Origin: Verrucomicrobiia bacterium | GTDB lineage: Bacteria; Verrucomicrobiota; Verrucomicrobiia; Opitutales; Cerasicoccaceae | Direction of reading: 5' to 3' | DNA length: 64,000 bases | NCBI GenBank assembly: GCA_030432235.1 | Contig: JAUIHT010000001.1 | Span: forward strand, 1,178,001-1,242,000 | Shown: in pieces, positions 7,100-53,870 of the stretch | Layout: every line of letters begins with the position of its first letter | Numbering within the stretch: position 1 is the stretch's first letter | Position numbers and translations under genes: made by a program | Notes under the pieces: generated by a model | What the model saw: only the letters and a program-made list of their open reading frames with translations | Databases searched by the model: none | What the model was told of the DNA's origin: nothing

Positions 7100-9043
7100 A
7101 TGCGAATACTGCCTAAAATTAAGAGTCCGGCCGACGTCCAGGCGTTGCCGGCGGAAGAGCTCAGCGTTCTTGCGGAGGAAATCCGTGAGGAAATCATCCA
7201 CGTCACTTCGGAGAATGGCGGCCATATCGGACCCAATCTCGGGGTGGTGGAGTTGACCATCGCGCTGCACCGGCATTTCACCACGCCGAAGGACCGTTTC
7301 GTCTTCGACGTCTCCCACCAGGGCTACGTCCACAAGCTCCTGACCGGGCGCTTCGGGGATAAATTCCGCAAAATTCGCAGTTCCGGCGGCCTTTCCGGCT
7401 TCCTTAACCGCGAGGAGTCCGAGCACGACTGCTACGGGGCCGGGCACGCTGGCACCGCACTCTCCGCTGCCCTTGGCATGGCTACCGCCCGTGACCAGAA
7501 CGGCAGCGACGAGCACGTTGTGGCCGTCATCGGGGACGCCGCCCTGACCTGCGGCATCACCATGGAGGCGCTTAACAACATTCGTTCCTCGACCAAGCGC
7601 CTCATTGTCATCCTCAACGACAACAAGTGGTCCATCGCACCCAATGTCGGCGCCATTCACACCTACCTGAACGAGCTTATCACCAACCCGACCTACAACC
7701 GCATCCACGAGGACATGGAAGACTTCCTCCGGTGCGTCCCCGGCGGTGAGGCCCTCAAGAAGTTTGGCAGCAAGGTCAAACAGGAGACCAAGGACTTCTT
7801 TAGTGGCGACTACCAGTCCTCCCTCTTTGAGAAATTTGGCCTGCGCTATATCGGCCCCATTGACGGGCACGACCTCAAGCTGCTCGACCAGTATCTGGAT
7901 TTCGCCAAACGTTCCGAGGATCCCATCATCCTCCACGTGCTAACCACCAAGGGCAAGGGCTTCGACGCCGCCCTGGGTGATCCGGAAAAATTCCACGGCA
8001 CCAGCCCCTTCTGCAAGGACACCGGCAAGTCCAAGGGAGGCAAGCCCGGCAAGCCGCCGGCCTATCAGGACGTCATGGGCAAAGCCCTGGTGGAATTTGC
8101 CAAAAAGGACAAGAAGCTCGTCGGCATCACCGGCGCCATGCCTTCCGGGACGGGCCTCAAGCACCTGCGCGACGAATTGCCCAAGCAATACTACGACGTG
8201 GGCATTGCCGAGGAGCATGCCGTGCTCTTCGCCTCCGGCTTGGCCACCAACGGCATCAAGCCCGTCGTGGCCATCTACTCGACCTTCCTGCAGCGTGCCT
8301 ACGACTGCATCATCCACGACGTTTGCCTGCAGGACCTCGACGTGATGTTCTGCATGGACCGTGCCGGGCTCTCGCCCAATGACGGCGCCACCCACCACGG
8401 TCTCTTTGATATCTCCTACCTGCGTTGTGTGCCGCGTGCCGTGGTCATGCAACCCAAGGATGAGGACGAGCTCGTCGATATGATGAAGACGGGCATCGAG
8501 CACAAGGGCGCCAGCTTCATCCGCTACCCGCGCGGGTCTGGTGTCGGCGTTCGCATGAAGGACGAGCCCGAGCCCCTCGAAATCGGTAAGGCCGAGGTTC
8601 TGCGCGAAGGCGAGGACATCATCATCTGGGCCCTCGGGCCTATGGTGCAGGACGCCCTCATGCTGGCCAACAAGATTTCCGCCGAGCAGGGCCTGCACGT
8701 CGGGGTGGTCAACGCCCGCTTTGCCAAGCCCGTCGACGCTGAGTTACTCTCCGAGCACGCACGCAGCGCCAATCTCATTGTCACCATGGAAGATCATGTC
8801 CGGGTGGGTGGCTTTGGCACCGCCTGCCTCGAGGCGCTTTCTGAGAACGGCCTTTCCGCTACGCCCGTGGTGCGCATTGGCTGGCCCGACAAATTCGTCG
8901 AACACGGCACCACCCAAGCGGATATTCGCGCCTGGAACGGCCTCAGCCCGCAGGACATGGAGCGTGATATCCTCAAGGGCTACCAGGCTGCCACCGCCAA
9001 GCCCGCCGCTGCTCCCGCCCTCGGTTATCCCAGCGGTAAATAG
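7100..9043 (+). CDS. dxs: 1-deoxy-D-xylulose-5-phosphate synthase
   Basis: The thiamine-diphosphate enzyme that condenses pyruvate and glyceraldehyde 3-phosphate in the first step of the MEP isoprenoid pathway. I use the ATG at 7100 (647 aa); a TTG at 7091 is in frame. Family landmarks are GGHIGPNLGVVELTIALH, GGLSGFLNREES, the catalytic DVGIAEEHAV and AIYSTFLQRAYD in the pyrimidine domain, and the transketolase C-terminal domain. The diphosphate-binding motif, normally GDG, reads GDA at residues 145-147, while the matching NDN at 173-175 is intact. The protein is somewhat divergent throughout (for example YGAGHAGTALS where GTGHSSTS is usual). Probably co-transcribed with xseB. Confidence 0.92.
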   Translation: MRILPKIKSPADVQALPAEELSVLAEEIREEIIHVTSENGGHIGPNLGVVELTIALHRHFTTPKDRFVFDVSHQGYVHKLLTGRFGDKFRKIRSSGGLSGFLNREESEHDCYGAGHAGTALSAALGMATARDQNGSDEHVVAVIGDAALTCGITMEALNNIRSSTKRLIVILNDNKWSIAPNVGAIHTYLNELITNPTYNRIHEDMEDFLRCVPGGEALKKFGSKVKQETKDFFSGDYQSSLFEKFGLRYIGPIDGHDLKLLDQYLDFAKRSEDPIILHVLTTKGKGFDAALGDPEKFHGTSPFCKDTGKSKGGKPGKPPAYQDVMGKALVEFAKKDKKLVGITGAMPSGTGLKHLRDELPKQYYDVGIAEEHAVLFASGLATNGIKPVVAIYSTFLQRAYDCIIHDVCLQDLDVMFCMDRAGLSPNDGATHHGLFDISYLRCVPRAVVMQPKDEDELVDMMKTGIEHKGASFIRYPRGSGVGVRMKDEPEPLEIGKAEVLREGEDIIIWALGPMVQDALMLANKISAEQGLHVGVVNARFAKPVDAELLSEHARSANLIVTMEDHVRVGGFGTACLEALSENGLSATPVVRIGWPDKFVEHGTTQADIRAWNGLSPQDMERDILKGYQAATAKPAAAPALGYPSGK

Positions 9044-9065
9044 CAACGCGAGATAGATTTCTCAC

Positions 9066-9098
9066 AAAGGCACGGGTTGTTTCCGTGCCTTTTTGTTT
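9066..9098 (+). terminator. Rho-independent terminator after dxs
   Basis: A 7-bp GC-rich stem (GGCACGG with CCGTGCC, 9069-9089) extended by AAA/TTT, followed by a T-rich tail, 23 bases after the dxs stop. Confidence 0.9.
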
Positions 9099-9140
9099 GA
9101 TGCCTTATACCGTCTCTCAATTGATATGAGATGTTTTATT

Positions 9141-9213
9141 TTAACCACGGATTACGCGGATAACACGGATACAAGGTTAAAAAATCCGTGCCCATCCGTG
9201 TAATCCGTGGTCA
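9141..9213. repeat. Palindromic repeat of inverted 9-bp units (CACGGATNN type)
   Basis: The left arm reads as three units near 9 bp (CACGGATTA, CGCGGATAA, CACGGATAC). The right arm, read on the other strand, gives CACGGATTA, CACGGATGGG and CACGGATTT. The element is non-coding and lies between dxs and the convergent methyltransferase gene. It shares its design with the elements at 23377 and 51763. Confidence 0.8.
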
Positions 9214-9260
9214 ATATTTTATTTCTTCTGGGAATAGGTAATAGGCCAGCGAAATGGGGC

Positions 9261-9848
9261 TCAGCTTCGCTTGCGGGCGATGAACTGCACGACGCTGGCC
9301 AGGCCAGTGTGGTATTTGCCCTCGACGACCTCGCGTTCGATTTCCTGGCAAAGCAGGGGTTCGCATTGAGGGAAAGCCTGCTCCAGATCGGTGCAGATCA
9401 TGAGCCTGTCGGCGTCTTTTGGGCCACCGGTATTGTAATTTAGTTGTGCCTTGGAGTAGGCTTCCAAGAGGAGAATGCCGCCGGGTTTCAGGCTGCGCTC
9501 CACCTTGGGGTACAGCTTTGCACGGACTACGCTCGGCAGATGGGCGAAGATGGAAATGACTGAGTTGAAGGCGGCTTCCGGGGGCTCGTAGGTTGCCAGG
9601 TCGGCCAAGGTGGTCTGGATGGTCAGGCTCTTGGAGGCGGCCAGTTGTAGCGCTTTGCTCAGCCCCACTTCGGAACCATCGACGCCCAGCACCTCCAGGC
9701 CCAGAGACGCCAAAAAGACCGCGTTGCGGCCTTCGCCCTCGGCCAGGGAGAGCACCGGTCCGGTCAAAAGGGCGGCATTTTGATAAAGGAATGCGTTCGG
9801 CTCCGTGCCGTAAGCATATTCATCATCGCTGTACCGCTGGTCCCACAT
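9261..9848 (-). CDS. Class I SAM-dependent methyltransferase
   Basis: A 195-residue protein of the TehB/thiopurine-methyltransferase-like group. The N-terminus (WDQRYSDDEYAYGTEPN) is typical of this family. Motif I, the SAM-binding loop, is VLSLAEGEGRNAVFLASLG, followed by the acidic VDGSE at the end of strand 2 and a motif near ISIFAHLP. The substrate is unknown; relatives act on small molecules such as tellurite or thiol compounds. The start is 3 bases after the rpiB stop, so both belong to one transcript. Confidence 0.85.
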   Translation of the reverse strand: MWDQRYSDDEYAYGTEPNAFLYQNAALLTGPVLSLAEGEGRNAVFLASLGLEVLGVDGSEVGLSKALQLAASKSLTIQTTLADLATYEPPEAAFNSVISIFAHLPSVVRAKLYPKVERSLKPGGILLLEAYSKAQLNYNTGGPKDADRLMICTDLEQAFPQCEPLLCQEIEREVVEGKYHTGLASVVQFIARKRS

Positions 9849-50304: not shown

Positions 50305-51090
50305 ATGTATCGCATCGGACGAGCTATTATTGTTGCAGGCTGCCTGGCTCTATTGCCTTGGGGGGCGCGCGGAGAGTCGGAGATGGTCCAATACTCGACC
50401 ATCGAGGCTTTGCTGGGCGGTGTTCTGGCGGGTAATCTGACTTTGGATGCCTTAGTGGACGAGGGCGACTTCGGCATCGGCACCTTCAACGACCTCGATG
50501 GCGAGATGGTCGTCCTCGGCGGTACAGTCTACCAGGTTCGCGGGGACGGTACAGTGCATCAGCCGCCCCTGTCGACGAAGACGCCCTACGCGGCGGTATG
50601 CGATTTTGACGGAGACAAAGCCCAGAAAATCGACGGCATGCCTGCAGGGCTGGACTATGTGGCTTTACAGGCGCAAATCGACAAGCTGCTGCCGTCGCTG
50701 AATCTTTTCTATGCCATCAAGATTGACGGCACCTTCAGCGCTCTGACCGCACGGAGTGTGCCTGCTCAGAAAAAACCGTATCCGCCGCTGGCCGAAATCG
50801 TGAAGAACCAGCCCATCTTTAAATTCGATAACGTCAAAGGCACACTGGTGGGCTTCCGTTGTCCGGCCTACGTCAAGGGCGTCAACGTCCCCGGCTACCA
50901 TTTCCACTTTCTCACGGAGGATAAAAAAGGCGGTGGGCACGTTCTCGCGCTGACCACCGGCGAGGTCCAAATCAAGTACGTAAAACTCGACTCCTGGGAG
51001 GTCATGCTGCCCGACACGATTGAGTTCCTCGAGGCGCCTTTGGGTAAGGACATGTCCAAGGAACTCAAAGCCGTCGAGACGGCGAAGTGA
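50305..51090 (+). CDS. budA: Exported acetolactate decarboxylase
   Basis: A 261-residue alpha-acetolactate decarboxylase, which turns 2-acetolactate into acetoin with CO2 release. The zinc site is visible as GYHFHFLTEDKKGGGH (His-x-His and a later His), and VVLGGTVYQVRGDGTVH is the family core. Unlike most family members it starts with a signal peptide (YRIGRAIIVAGCLALLPWG, then ARG), so it should act outside the cytoplasm. No acetolactate synthase is nearby. It follows the Coa1-like gene by 41 bases. Confidence 0.9.
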   Translation: MYRIGRAIIVAGCLALLPWGARGESEMVQYSTIEALLGGVLAGNLTLDALVDEGDFGIGTFNDLDGEMVVLGGTVYQVRGDGTVHQPPLSTKTPYAAVCDFDGDKAQKIDGMPAGLDYVALQAQIDKLLPSLNLFYAIKIDGTFSALTARSVPAQKKPYPPLAEIVKNQPIFKFDNVKGTLVGFRCPAYVKGVNVPGYHFHFLTEDKKGGGHVLALTTGEVQIKYVKLDSWEVMLPDTIEFLEAPLGKDMSKELKAVETAK

Positions 51091-51855: not shown

Positions 51856-53610
51856 TTATTCTGCTTGAATGGCGTTGGCCACCTGCTTGAGTGCTTCGGC
51901 CACACGCGGGCCGGGGACGCTGAACTGCTTCGCGTCGATGAAATAGACCCGGCCGTTTTTGACCGCACTGAGCTGGCTCCAGATGGGGTCTCCCCGATAG
52001 TCGGAGAGGGCGGCGCCATCGATGAGAGTGCCATTACCGCCTCCGGGCGAGGAGTAAAGAATGACTTCCGGGTCGGCCTCAAGCAGGAATTCGCGGCTAA
52101 GCTGAGGCCAGCCCGAGCCAGCCTCGGCGGCGATATTGACGCCTCCGGCCTCGGTGATGAGCCCGTCGCCGAAGGTGCCGGCACCGGCGGCGTATTGCCA
52201 TTCGTAATCGGTAAAGATGACGGTTCGCGGCGCTTGCCAGTTGGGCTTGGCGGCGAGGTTTTTGCGTACGCCGTCGCGGGTGGCCTGCATCTTGGCGGAG
52301 ATGTCCCAGGCGGCCTGTTGCTGGTCGAGCGCTTGCCCGGTCAGGTTGACATCGTCCATGACGCCGTCGTACCCCACGCTGTTGAGCACCAGGGCGGGCA
52401 TCCCGAGGCGGCGCAGGCGGCGCACGTCGGCGGCGTTGGTGATGTCGGCCAGGAGAATGAGATCCGGCTCCAGGGCGGCGACGGCTTCGAAGGGAGGCGA
52501 GGGGTAAACGCTCAGGCGCGGCAGGTCACCGAGGTTTTCCGGCACGTCGCAGTGCTCGGTGACGGCCACGAGGCGATCGCCCTGGCCCATCTTGATGAGA
52601 ATTTCCGTGGCGCTCGGGGCTAGGCTGACGATGCGTTGGGGCTCCACCGGGATGACGGTTTCGTCGCCGCGGCCGTCGGTCAGGGCCATGGGGTAGGGCG
52701 AAGCCGGTGAATGCACCGCGAGGGTTTCGGCGCCGCCTTTGGGCTTTTCGCCGGGGAAGACCATCACGCTGGCGGTGCGGCCCACGCGCATGAGCGCTTC
52801 GTGCGGCGGGTCGATGAGCTTGATGCGGACGGGAAAACGTTGGGCCAGCCGCACCCAGTCGACAGTCGGAGCCACGACGGGCAGGAGGTTTTGCGCCTCG
52901 GCGCCATCCTCGCGAAAGATACCCCAGCCGACGCTTTCAACGACGCCCTCGAGGGGCTCGAAGTGCTGGCCCATGAACCTCACCTCGGCACGGTCGCCGG
53001 GCTCGATGTTGCGCAGGTCGGTTTCCTTGAAAAAGCCGTAGATCCAGAACGAATCGAAGTCGATGAGGGCGACCAGCGGCTGGCCTTTGGTCACGTAAGT
53101 GCCCTCGGCGACCTGCAGGTTGGTCACGTAGCCGTCGACGGTGGCGTAGACCTTGGTGTAGCCGAGATCGAGGCGGGCCAGTTCGAGCTGGGCCTCGTCC
53201 ACAGCGATGTCGGCCACCGCCTCGGCGTACTGGGTCTCGAAATCCTGAAACTCCTCCAAGGAAATCAGCTTGTCGGCCACGAGCTGGCGGCGGCGCTCGA
53301 CCTCGCGGGACAGGTTCTCGGCCTTGACCTTGGCGCGGTTGAGCGAGGCCTGGGCCGCGACCACCTCCTGGGCGTAATCGGTGGGGTCGATTTCAAAGAG
53401 CAGGTCGCCGCGGTTGACCCACTGGTTGTCCTTCACCGTCACCTCGATCATCGGGCCGCTGACACGCGCGGCGATGCCGACCACGTAGGCGTCCGCCTGG
53501 CCGTCACGCGTCCAGGGGTAGAGCAGGTAATCGCGCCACACGAGCAGTCCAAGGGCGACGGCAACGGCGAGCACCCCGAGGGTGATGACTACTTTGATAA
53601 ATGTTTTCAA
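51856..53610 (-). CDS. Fusion of HlyD-type membrane fusion protein and BtuF-like periplasmic binding protein
   Basis: A 584-residue protein in one unbroken frame. Residues 1-288 are an AaeA/EmrA-like adaptor: one N-terminal membrane span (5-25), the biotinyl-lipoyl-type segment ISGPMIEVTVKDNQWVNRG region at 45-75, a coiled coil near 85-150, and the second lipoyl half LGYTKVYATVDGYVTNLQV. Residues 306-584 are a BtuF/FepB-type binding protein of the cobalamin/iron-complex family, starting TDGRGDETVIPVEPQRIVSL and continuing APSATEIL, with VYFIDAKQFSVPGPR at the end. It has no signal peptide at the junction. The gene overlaps the upstream DUF1656 gene by 4 bases. An AaeB/FUSC transporter, normally part of this set, is not in the neighbourhood. 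Confidence 0.88.
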   Translation of the reverse strand: MKTFIKVVITLGVLAVAVALGLLVWRDYLLYPWTRDGQADAYVVGIAARVSGPMIEVTVKDNQWVNRGDLLFEIDPTDYAQEVVAAQASLNRAKVKAENLSREVERRRQLVADKLISLEEFQDFETQYAEAVADIAVDEAQLELARLDLGYTKVYATVDGYVTNLQVAEGTYVTKGQPLVALIDFDSFWIYGFFKETDLRNIEPGDRAEVRFMGQHFEPLEGVVESVGWGIFREDGAEAQNLLPVVAPTVDWVRLAQRFPVRIKLIDPPHEALMRVGRTASVMVFPGEKPKGGAETLAVHSPASPYPMALTDGRGDETVIPVEPQRIVSLAPSATEILIKMGQGDRLVAVTEHCDVPENLGDLPRLSVYPSPPFEAVAALEPDLILLADITNAADVRRLRRLGMPALVLNSVGYDGVMDDVNLTGQALDQQQAAWDISAKMQATRDGVRKNLAAKPNWQAPRTVIFTDYEWQYAAGAGTFGDGLITEAGGVNIAAEAGSGWPQLSREFLLEADPEVILYSSPGGGNGTLIDGAALSDYRGDPIWSQLSAVKNGRVYFIDAKQFSVPGPRVAEALKQVANAIQAE

Positions 53611-53870
53611 CGTGGCAGAAACATGAGTGATAGCAGGAAACCGTAAACAAAAATCAGGCCGATGAGGAAGAGCGGCGGGTGCCAGACGAAGCGCTCCAGG
53701 CGTAGTCGATCACCTACCCAGGCGGTTACGCCGCCCAGCAGAATAGCGCCCAAAATGATCAGGATGACGGGGGTATAGTAGAACCCGAACAGATCGTACT
53801 CCGGCACCATGCGCCAGGTCTCCGGAATCCAGCCGAAGAAATCCATACCCGTGTCGCTCGTAGTCATCAC
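53607..53870 (-). CDS. DUF1656 (AaeX-like) small membrane protein
   Basis: An 87-residue protein with two membrane spans (YYTPVILIILGAILLGGVTA and LFLIGLIFVYGFLLSLMF) and the DUF1656/AaeX family N-terminus with PEYDLFGFYYTP. AaeX is encoded next to the AaeA-AaeB aromatic acid efflux system. Here it precedes and overlaps, by 4 bases, the adaptor-BtuF fusion, which supports the adaptor half being of AaeA type. Confidence 0.85.
   Translation of the reverse strand: MMTTSDTGMDFFGWIPETWRMVPEYDLFGFYYTPVILIILGAILLGGVTAWVGDRLRLERFVWHPPLFLIGLIFVYGFLLSLMFLPR

Follow-up and report, generated by a model that had tools for sequence, protein, structure and literature searches.

Efflux adaptors and import binding proteins normally belong to machineries with opposite directions of transport, and the locus described here raises the question of what a single polypeptide containing both could be for. 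In the window, which is the whole 64,000-nucleotide stretch of Cerasicoccaceae DNA that was analysed and lies at G000:C37:1178001-1242000, one uninterrupted reading frame encodes a 584-aa protein in which an HlyD-type adaptor continues into a BtuF-type binding domain. As originally predicted, the start of this gene overlaps the 3′ end of an upstream DUF1656 gene by 4 bases, and the features of the locus are as follows.

51856..53610, minus strand: fusion gene with a TTG start, encoding 584 aa, an HlyD-type adaptor joined to a BtuF-type binding domain
52747..53610, minus strand: adaptor half, residues 1-288, assigned with Pfam and NCBIfam; N-terminal hydrophobic segment, lipoyl and barrel domains, hairpin
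52687..52746, minus strand: variable linker, residues 289-308, from the alignment of 10 fusions
51859..52686, minus strand: binding domain, residues 309-584, PF01497, BtuF-type
52486..52488, minus strand: codon for E375, the counterpart in the alignment of the N-lobe docking Glu in E. coli BtuF, invariant in 10/10
52090..52092, minus strand: codon for E507, the counterpart of Glu202 in the alignment with E. coli BtuF, invariant in 10/10
53607..53870, minus strand: gene for a DUF1656 (AaeX-like) small membrane protein, PF07869, E 1.6e-10

Pfam places Biotin_lipoyl_2 (residues 46-75), HlyD_D23 (44-227) and HlyD_3 (154-229) in the first half of the protein and Peripla_BP_2 (PF01497) at residues 327-560 (E 7e-32), the latter spanning positions 1-233 of the 235 in the profile, which bears out the proposed in-frame union of an adaptor with a complete BtuF-type domain. 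The broader NCBIfam models RND_mfp and TroA_like reach their cut-offs on the protein. For the adaptor half, the nearest equivalogs are MdtN (238.2 bits, cut-off 376) and AaeA (194.6 bits, cut-off 400); since neither cut-off is reached, we describe this half as AaeA-like in sequence and do not claim AaeA itself. Its hairpin carries the pattern R-x3-L-x6-S (R106, L110 and S117), which is present in 10 of 10 fusions and has the spacing that we take to be that of the adaptor RLS motif. The RLS name appears in a legend of PMC8277102.

Residues 3-25 form the most hydrophobic stretch of the protein, and inspection of the sequence found no second signal peptide between the adaptor half and the binding domain. 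This agrees with the earlier view that the binding domain is tethered to the membrane and has no signal peptide of its own, the predicted anchor being the N-terminal hydrophobic segment of the adaptor. The stretch between P286 and D312, which includes the linker, ranges from 18 to 63 residues across the ten fusions and varies in sequence too. A predicted structure of the window protein has a mean pLDDT of 45.3, the binding domain being unmodelled (residues 292-582 below 50) because the input alignment contained no relatives of that half.

The fusion is carried, with no internal stop, by all ten genomes of the family that we examined, namely the window's own (G000) and nine relatives (G001-G009), together covering four genera, and each of the ten proteins matches PF01497, HlyD_D23, HlyD_3 and Biotin_lipoyl_2 in Pfam. 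The presence of the same in-frame fusion in ten independent assemblies excludes a sequencing error that joined two genes near position 52,700, a doubt raised with the original prediction, and leaves practically no room for an assembly artefact or chance read-through. Over their whole length, the fusions of the relatives are 48-65% identical to the window protein. Among the ten, mean pairwise identity is 67% in the adaptor half (119 of 287 columns invariant) and 45% in the binding domain (44 of 272), with the C-terminal extensions of the G002, G006 and G008 proteins left out of the alignments. On the evidence of domain content and conservation, the C-terminal half can be established as a BtuF-type binding domain that is complete, conserved and attached by a flexible linker. 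The extensions just mentioned (G008, G006 and G002 at L044, L045 and L046) are rich in Pro, Ala and Glu and about 60-100 residues long.

Outside the family, no match across both halves was found in 44 genomes of the order (E<=1e-20), in 362 genomes of the order (1e-30, three candidates scored per genome) or in 382 genomes of the phylum (1e-60, three candidates scored per genome); these sets overlap, and a diverged fusion could escape the scoring of three candidates per genome. Plasmid records yielded 1964 with a match, none of them covering at least 80% of the fusion query, and a contig search with the whole fusion returned six loci, all of them unfused enterobacterial adaptors. An apparent second fusion in G654 (a 624-aa or 627-aa frame) was rejected, as PF01497 is its only domain match and what looked like the first half is a spurious frame upstream. 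A literature search of titles and abstracts recovered no paper on such a fusion; both halves are of known kinds, and the two-domain architecture is new to us. The common gene order and the adaptor sequences argue for a single origin of the fusion. The binding-domain tree does not prove one: the union of the ten fused domains has support of 72/70 and occurs in 74% of bootstrap trees, and the drawn tree splits them 4 + 6.

Just downstream of the fusion, the window contains a gene for an SLT lytic transglycosylase (PF01464; 51204-51758, minus strand), and a similar 180-aa frame, recognised by sight, follows the fusion in G001 (L043 10284-10826). An alpha-acetolactate decarboxylase gene with a signal-peptide-like start is found at 50305-51090 of the window on the plus strand (PF03306, E 8e-79). 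In three genomes from a single genus, the fusion is followed by a frame of 163 aa that begins with hydrophobic residues (L045 10043-10534, L046 7487-7978 and L051 9765-10256); the L045 copy, the one scanned, has no Pfam match. Neither the protein nor the DNA beside its gene showed a kinase, a regulator or any signalling domain, and we have abandoned the suggestion that the protein is a tethered sensor-adaptor.

A DUF1656 gene immediately precedes the fusion in all ten family genomes, and in 9/9 relatives a FUSC gene adjoins the DUF1656 gene on the divergent strand. The window's own genome has three FUSC genes, none of which is next to the fusion. One of these, in a 783-aa frame at G000:C7:260765-262264 with PF04632 and PF13515, is an ortholog 48% identical to the adjacent FUSC of G001, and it forms with the nine adjacent FUSCs a 10-row clade with support of 100/100, outside which the other two fall on long branches. 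The partner is thus unlinked in this genome, and the reading that FUSC was lost is refuted; the original observation of a missing transporter stands for the window, where none is adjacent, but does not extend to the relatives or to the genome as a whole.

The same genome has a second FUSC cluster on contig C3 (L053 3679-12603), consisting of a FUSC gene (7410-9596, PF04632), an HlyD-type adaptor with a DUF1656 match next to it (C3:91244-91402) and two outer-membrane-factor-like frames. Directly behind the divergent FUSC of G001, the closest relative, stand an AcrB-type RND transporter and its HlyD adaptor (L043 1215-5487), a pair that we did not find in mapping the other eight relatives; our gene maps come from a simple caller that takes the longest frames, and they include some false frames.

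Two genomes of the same class and of other families, G353 and G172, have a similar adaptor beside a divergent FUSC. With the fusion profile, the G353 adaptor aligns over residues 8-290 (356 bits) and the G172 adaptor over 9-289 (341 bits), and both end without a binding domain; at these loci, Pfam confirmed the FUSC of L094 and the DUF1656 protein of L095, and the FUSC of L095 was read by eye. This arrangement suggests, at the level of sequence, that an ordinary pump came first and acquired the binding domain later. Homology and gene order together demonstrate that the N-terminal half is the conserved adaptor of a predicted pump of the DUF1656, HlyD and FUSC (AaeXAB-like) type.

The fusion to the adaptor, the overlap with DUF1656 and the presence of FUSC in all ten genomes tie the binding domain to an exporter, and the domain might accordingly take up a ligand in the periplasm and feed it to the FUSC pump. 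Such a ligand would be the substrate of the pump, whether an aromatic acid, a chelate or a siderophore-like compound. Hand-over of this kind to an adaptor exists in the periplasm, where CusF passes Cu+ to CusB (PMC8277102), and PF01497 proteins bind heme and siderophores too, as matches in our PDB search indicate. On the other side, G353 and G172 have closely similar pumps that lack the domain, which would make it dispensable for such pumps, and the domain itself provides two further arguments against capture for export.

The closest solved structure to a profile of the ten domains is a vitamin B12-binding protein (E 2e-37, PDB search), with an iron-binding chain second, a heme-binding chain third and E. 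coli BtuF variants thereafter, in agreement with the vitamin- or metal-complex type that had been anticipated from the sequence. In NCBIfam, the domain scores 141.5 bits with an archaeal PGF-CTERM model, 75.6 bits with the IsdE heme model and 62.8 bits with BtuF, all below cut-off; the BtuF equivalog has a cut-off of 234 bits, and with this missed we call the domain BtuF-like and do not file it as BtuF. Tree analysis joins the free binding proteins of the family genomes (nine rows, the free binding protein of G004 not having been found at its FecCD locus) to the PDB heme-binding chain at 100/99. The fused domains are placed among the BtuF-type proteins of the order and two BtuF references, with a weak split from the heme type (66/94).

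Of the 14 Glu residues in the binding domain of the window protein, only E375 and E507 are invariant across the ten fusions, and these two align with the Glu pair of E. coli BtuF, whose N-lobe docking member we take to be Glu72. Position 72 is kept in 17/17 free relatives and position 202 in 16/17, and both are kept in all nine heme-type proteins. The pair, numbered Glu74/Glu202 in PMC3741162, is described there as making salt bridges with Arg56 of BtuC. Since it is general to this protein family, it shows that the ability to dock on an ABC transporter has been kept, not which partner is used. The invariance of both docking residues, with the 12 other Glu of the domain free to vary, weighs against a role confined to feeding the exporter.

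The second argument comes from the cavity, which in BtuF comprises Y50, W66, W85, F162, F168 and W196 (PMC5269720). In all ten fused domains, positions 50, 66, 168 and 196 are occupied by aromatic residues or His; position 162 is aromatic in four of ten, and position 85 falls in an alignment gap. Six columns are aromatic or His throughout the ten domains, and four of these are BtuF cavity positions. For at least four of the five testable cavity positions among 195 aligned core columns, the hypergeometric P is 4e-7, a value from a test picked after the alignment had been seen, in which His was counted as aromatic and which concerns a family where pocket aromatics are common. The heme-type free binding proteins keep position 196 only (9/9). 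The residues found at position 66 of the fused domains are those of the BtuF variants W66F, W66Y and W66H, which retain nanomolar cobalamin binding according to PMC5269720. The binding domain therefore looks, by comparison of residues, like a working corrinoid-type BtuF with a putative corrinoid ligand. A cavity resembling that of BtuF sits poorly with capture for export, which we regard as doubtful.

Why such a domain should be attached to an adaptor may have a simple answer. Free BtuF-type relatives in the order often have an N-terminal anchor of their own: a crude scan, judged by eye, indicated an apparent uncleaved membrane helix in G013, G039, G017, G029, G047 and G023 and a lipobox-like site in G424, G019 and G622. 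Examples of apparently N-terminally anchored proteins of this type in the order are found at L068 5955-6962, L069 4666-5664 and L079 3003-4025. Because of these anchored relatives, the least demanding reason for the fusion would be that it tethers the binding domain to the inner membrane. In its extreme form, this explanation holds that the fusion only substitutes for the usual anchor, with the halves independent and the shared chain functionally meaningless, and the variability of the linker in length and sequence fits such independence, as do the anchored free proteins. A fusion without effect could disappear or come apart over time, whereas this one has been kept in all ten genomes and four genera at 48-65% identity, and we consider it unlikely that the joining of the two halves is without meaning.

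The metabolic context was examined in the same genomes. B12-binding domains (PF02310) occur in all ten family genomes, and the window's own genome has both MetH and methylmalonyl-CoA mutase above cut-off. Its MetH is split over two neighbouring genes of 371 and 891 aa (C37, L120 482-4290), and that of G009 looks like a single 1305-aa gene (L128 2568-6485). The corrin-ring enzyme CbiC, the synthesis gene searched for, was detected in none of the ten family genomes and in none of four other genomes of the order; the control search detected CbiC in 7 of 14 known genomes. A binding-domain search at 1e-30, with three candidates scored per genome, revealed no BtuF-type protein besides the fusion in the ten genomes. 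The other matches at this threshold number five and score about 108-111 bits; those of G000, G002, G006 and G008 are in the heme-type locus and that of G004 is on another contig.

With regard to import partners, the statement that no ABC permease or ATPase accompanies the binding domain holds for the vicinity of the gene, and BtuC and BtuD genes are not linked to the fusion in its own genome; but that genome does contain a FecCD permease with an adjacent ATPase, on contig C39, the fusion lying on C37. One strong FecCD match (273-298 bits) occurs in each of the ten genomes. It is the only one in the window's genome, and the nine relatives have weaker matches besides, which we read as other ABC permeases. 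The best NCBIfam matches of the C39 permease are to BtuC (259 and 252 bits, below cut-off). Next to it are a HemS/ChuX gene and a gene for a binding protein of the heme type, and the strong FecCD permease may serve heme alone. An R-L-P-R motif is present in all ten family FecCD permeases and in nearly all others, and the FecCD tree, with no row of known function, long branches and a G008 row that is 40% filled, cannot separate heme from B12. The sole strong FecCD gene of G013 and of G039 is likewise unlinked from the BtuF-type protein, indicating that unlinked partners are usual in this order.

No cobalamin riboswitch reached the gathering score in the window, at L043, L046 or L048, or in any of the ten genomes, with G002, G006 and G008 each containing one weak match, below cut-off and away from the fusion. 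A close free relative in G031 (37% identical) is encoded on a contig with two cobalamin riboswitches, and the free relatives in G013 and G039 adjoin a receptor whose best match is TonB-B12. Among receptors of the family genomes, none reaches the TonB-B12 cut-off that would denote BtuB, and eight of ten genomes are without a match at 1e-10; the best candidate in the window's genome scores 156 bits as a siderophore receptor, 149 as a heme receptor and 148 as a B12 receptor, all below cut-off.

Our preferred reading, to which we assign a probability of about 0.48, is that the protein is bifunctional, a pump adaptor that also carries a tethered corrinoid-capture domain able to dock on an unlinked ABC permease, with ligand and coupling both putative. 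The adaptor would reside in the inner membrane and form oligomers with the FUSC protein and a channel of the outer membrane, and the pump would export small compounds, possibly aromatic acids by analogy with AaeAB; we infer this function because the adaptor is conserved, the R-x3-L-x6-S pattern is present in 10/10 fusions and there is a FUSC partner. The membrane-held binding domain would catch a corrinoid, either vitamin B12 or a related compound, in the periplasm and hand it to the single FecCD/BtuC-like permease and ATPase of the genome, docking through E375 and E507. Counted against the bifunctional reading are the missing cobalamin riboswitch, the lack of a clear BtuB, the location of the permease in a heme locus and the two cavity positions that are not kept.

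That eight of the ten genomes have no BtuB-like match leaves room for B12 entry through the channel of the exporter. In such a two-way use, the channel and adaptor ring would admit corrinoids to the periplasm without a dedicated BtuB receptor, and about six tethered BtuF domains would pass them to the unlinked ABC permease, a scheme that we think very improbable. The bifunctional protein that we favour is a candidate B12-uptake protein for bacteria that have B12-dependent enzymes and lack both CbiC and linked btuFCD genes. A chain that has stayed intact through deep divergence in one family also offers a direct test of whether an import-type domain assists an exporter, opposes it or works alongside it. 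In the window's genome, annotation based only on neighbouring genes would overlook both partners.

Among known systems, BtuF of BtuCD-F, a class III substrate-binding protein, shares with the fused domain the PF01497 fold family, the docking Glu pair and, at four of six cavity positions, an aromatic residue or His. Unlike BtuF, the fused domain has no signal peptide or anchor of its own and is carried on an efflux adaptor, with no BtuC or BtuD nearby and no riboswitch found. The gene set of DUF1656, HlyD adaptor and FUSC is the same as in AaeXAB, the p-hydroxybenzoate efflux system of E. coli, and in MdtNOP. In enterobacterial relatives of this type, the adaptors are unfused and 40-43% identical, with FUSC just upstream in 6/6 loci; here, in contrast, there is an extra C-terminal BtuF-type domain, and FUSC is divergent (nine relatives) or unlinked (the window's genome) and not in the operon. 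The DUF1656-HlyD/FUSC loci of G353 and G172 resemble those of the family relatives in having a divergent FUSC beside the adaptor gene, which in these two genomes is unfused. CusF and CusB likewise pair a periplasmic ligand-binding module with an HlyD-type adaptor (PMC8277102); CusF, however, is a separate small metal chaperone that works with an RND pump, whereas here the BtuF-type domain is part of the same chain as the adaptor and the pump is of the FUSC type.
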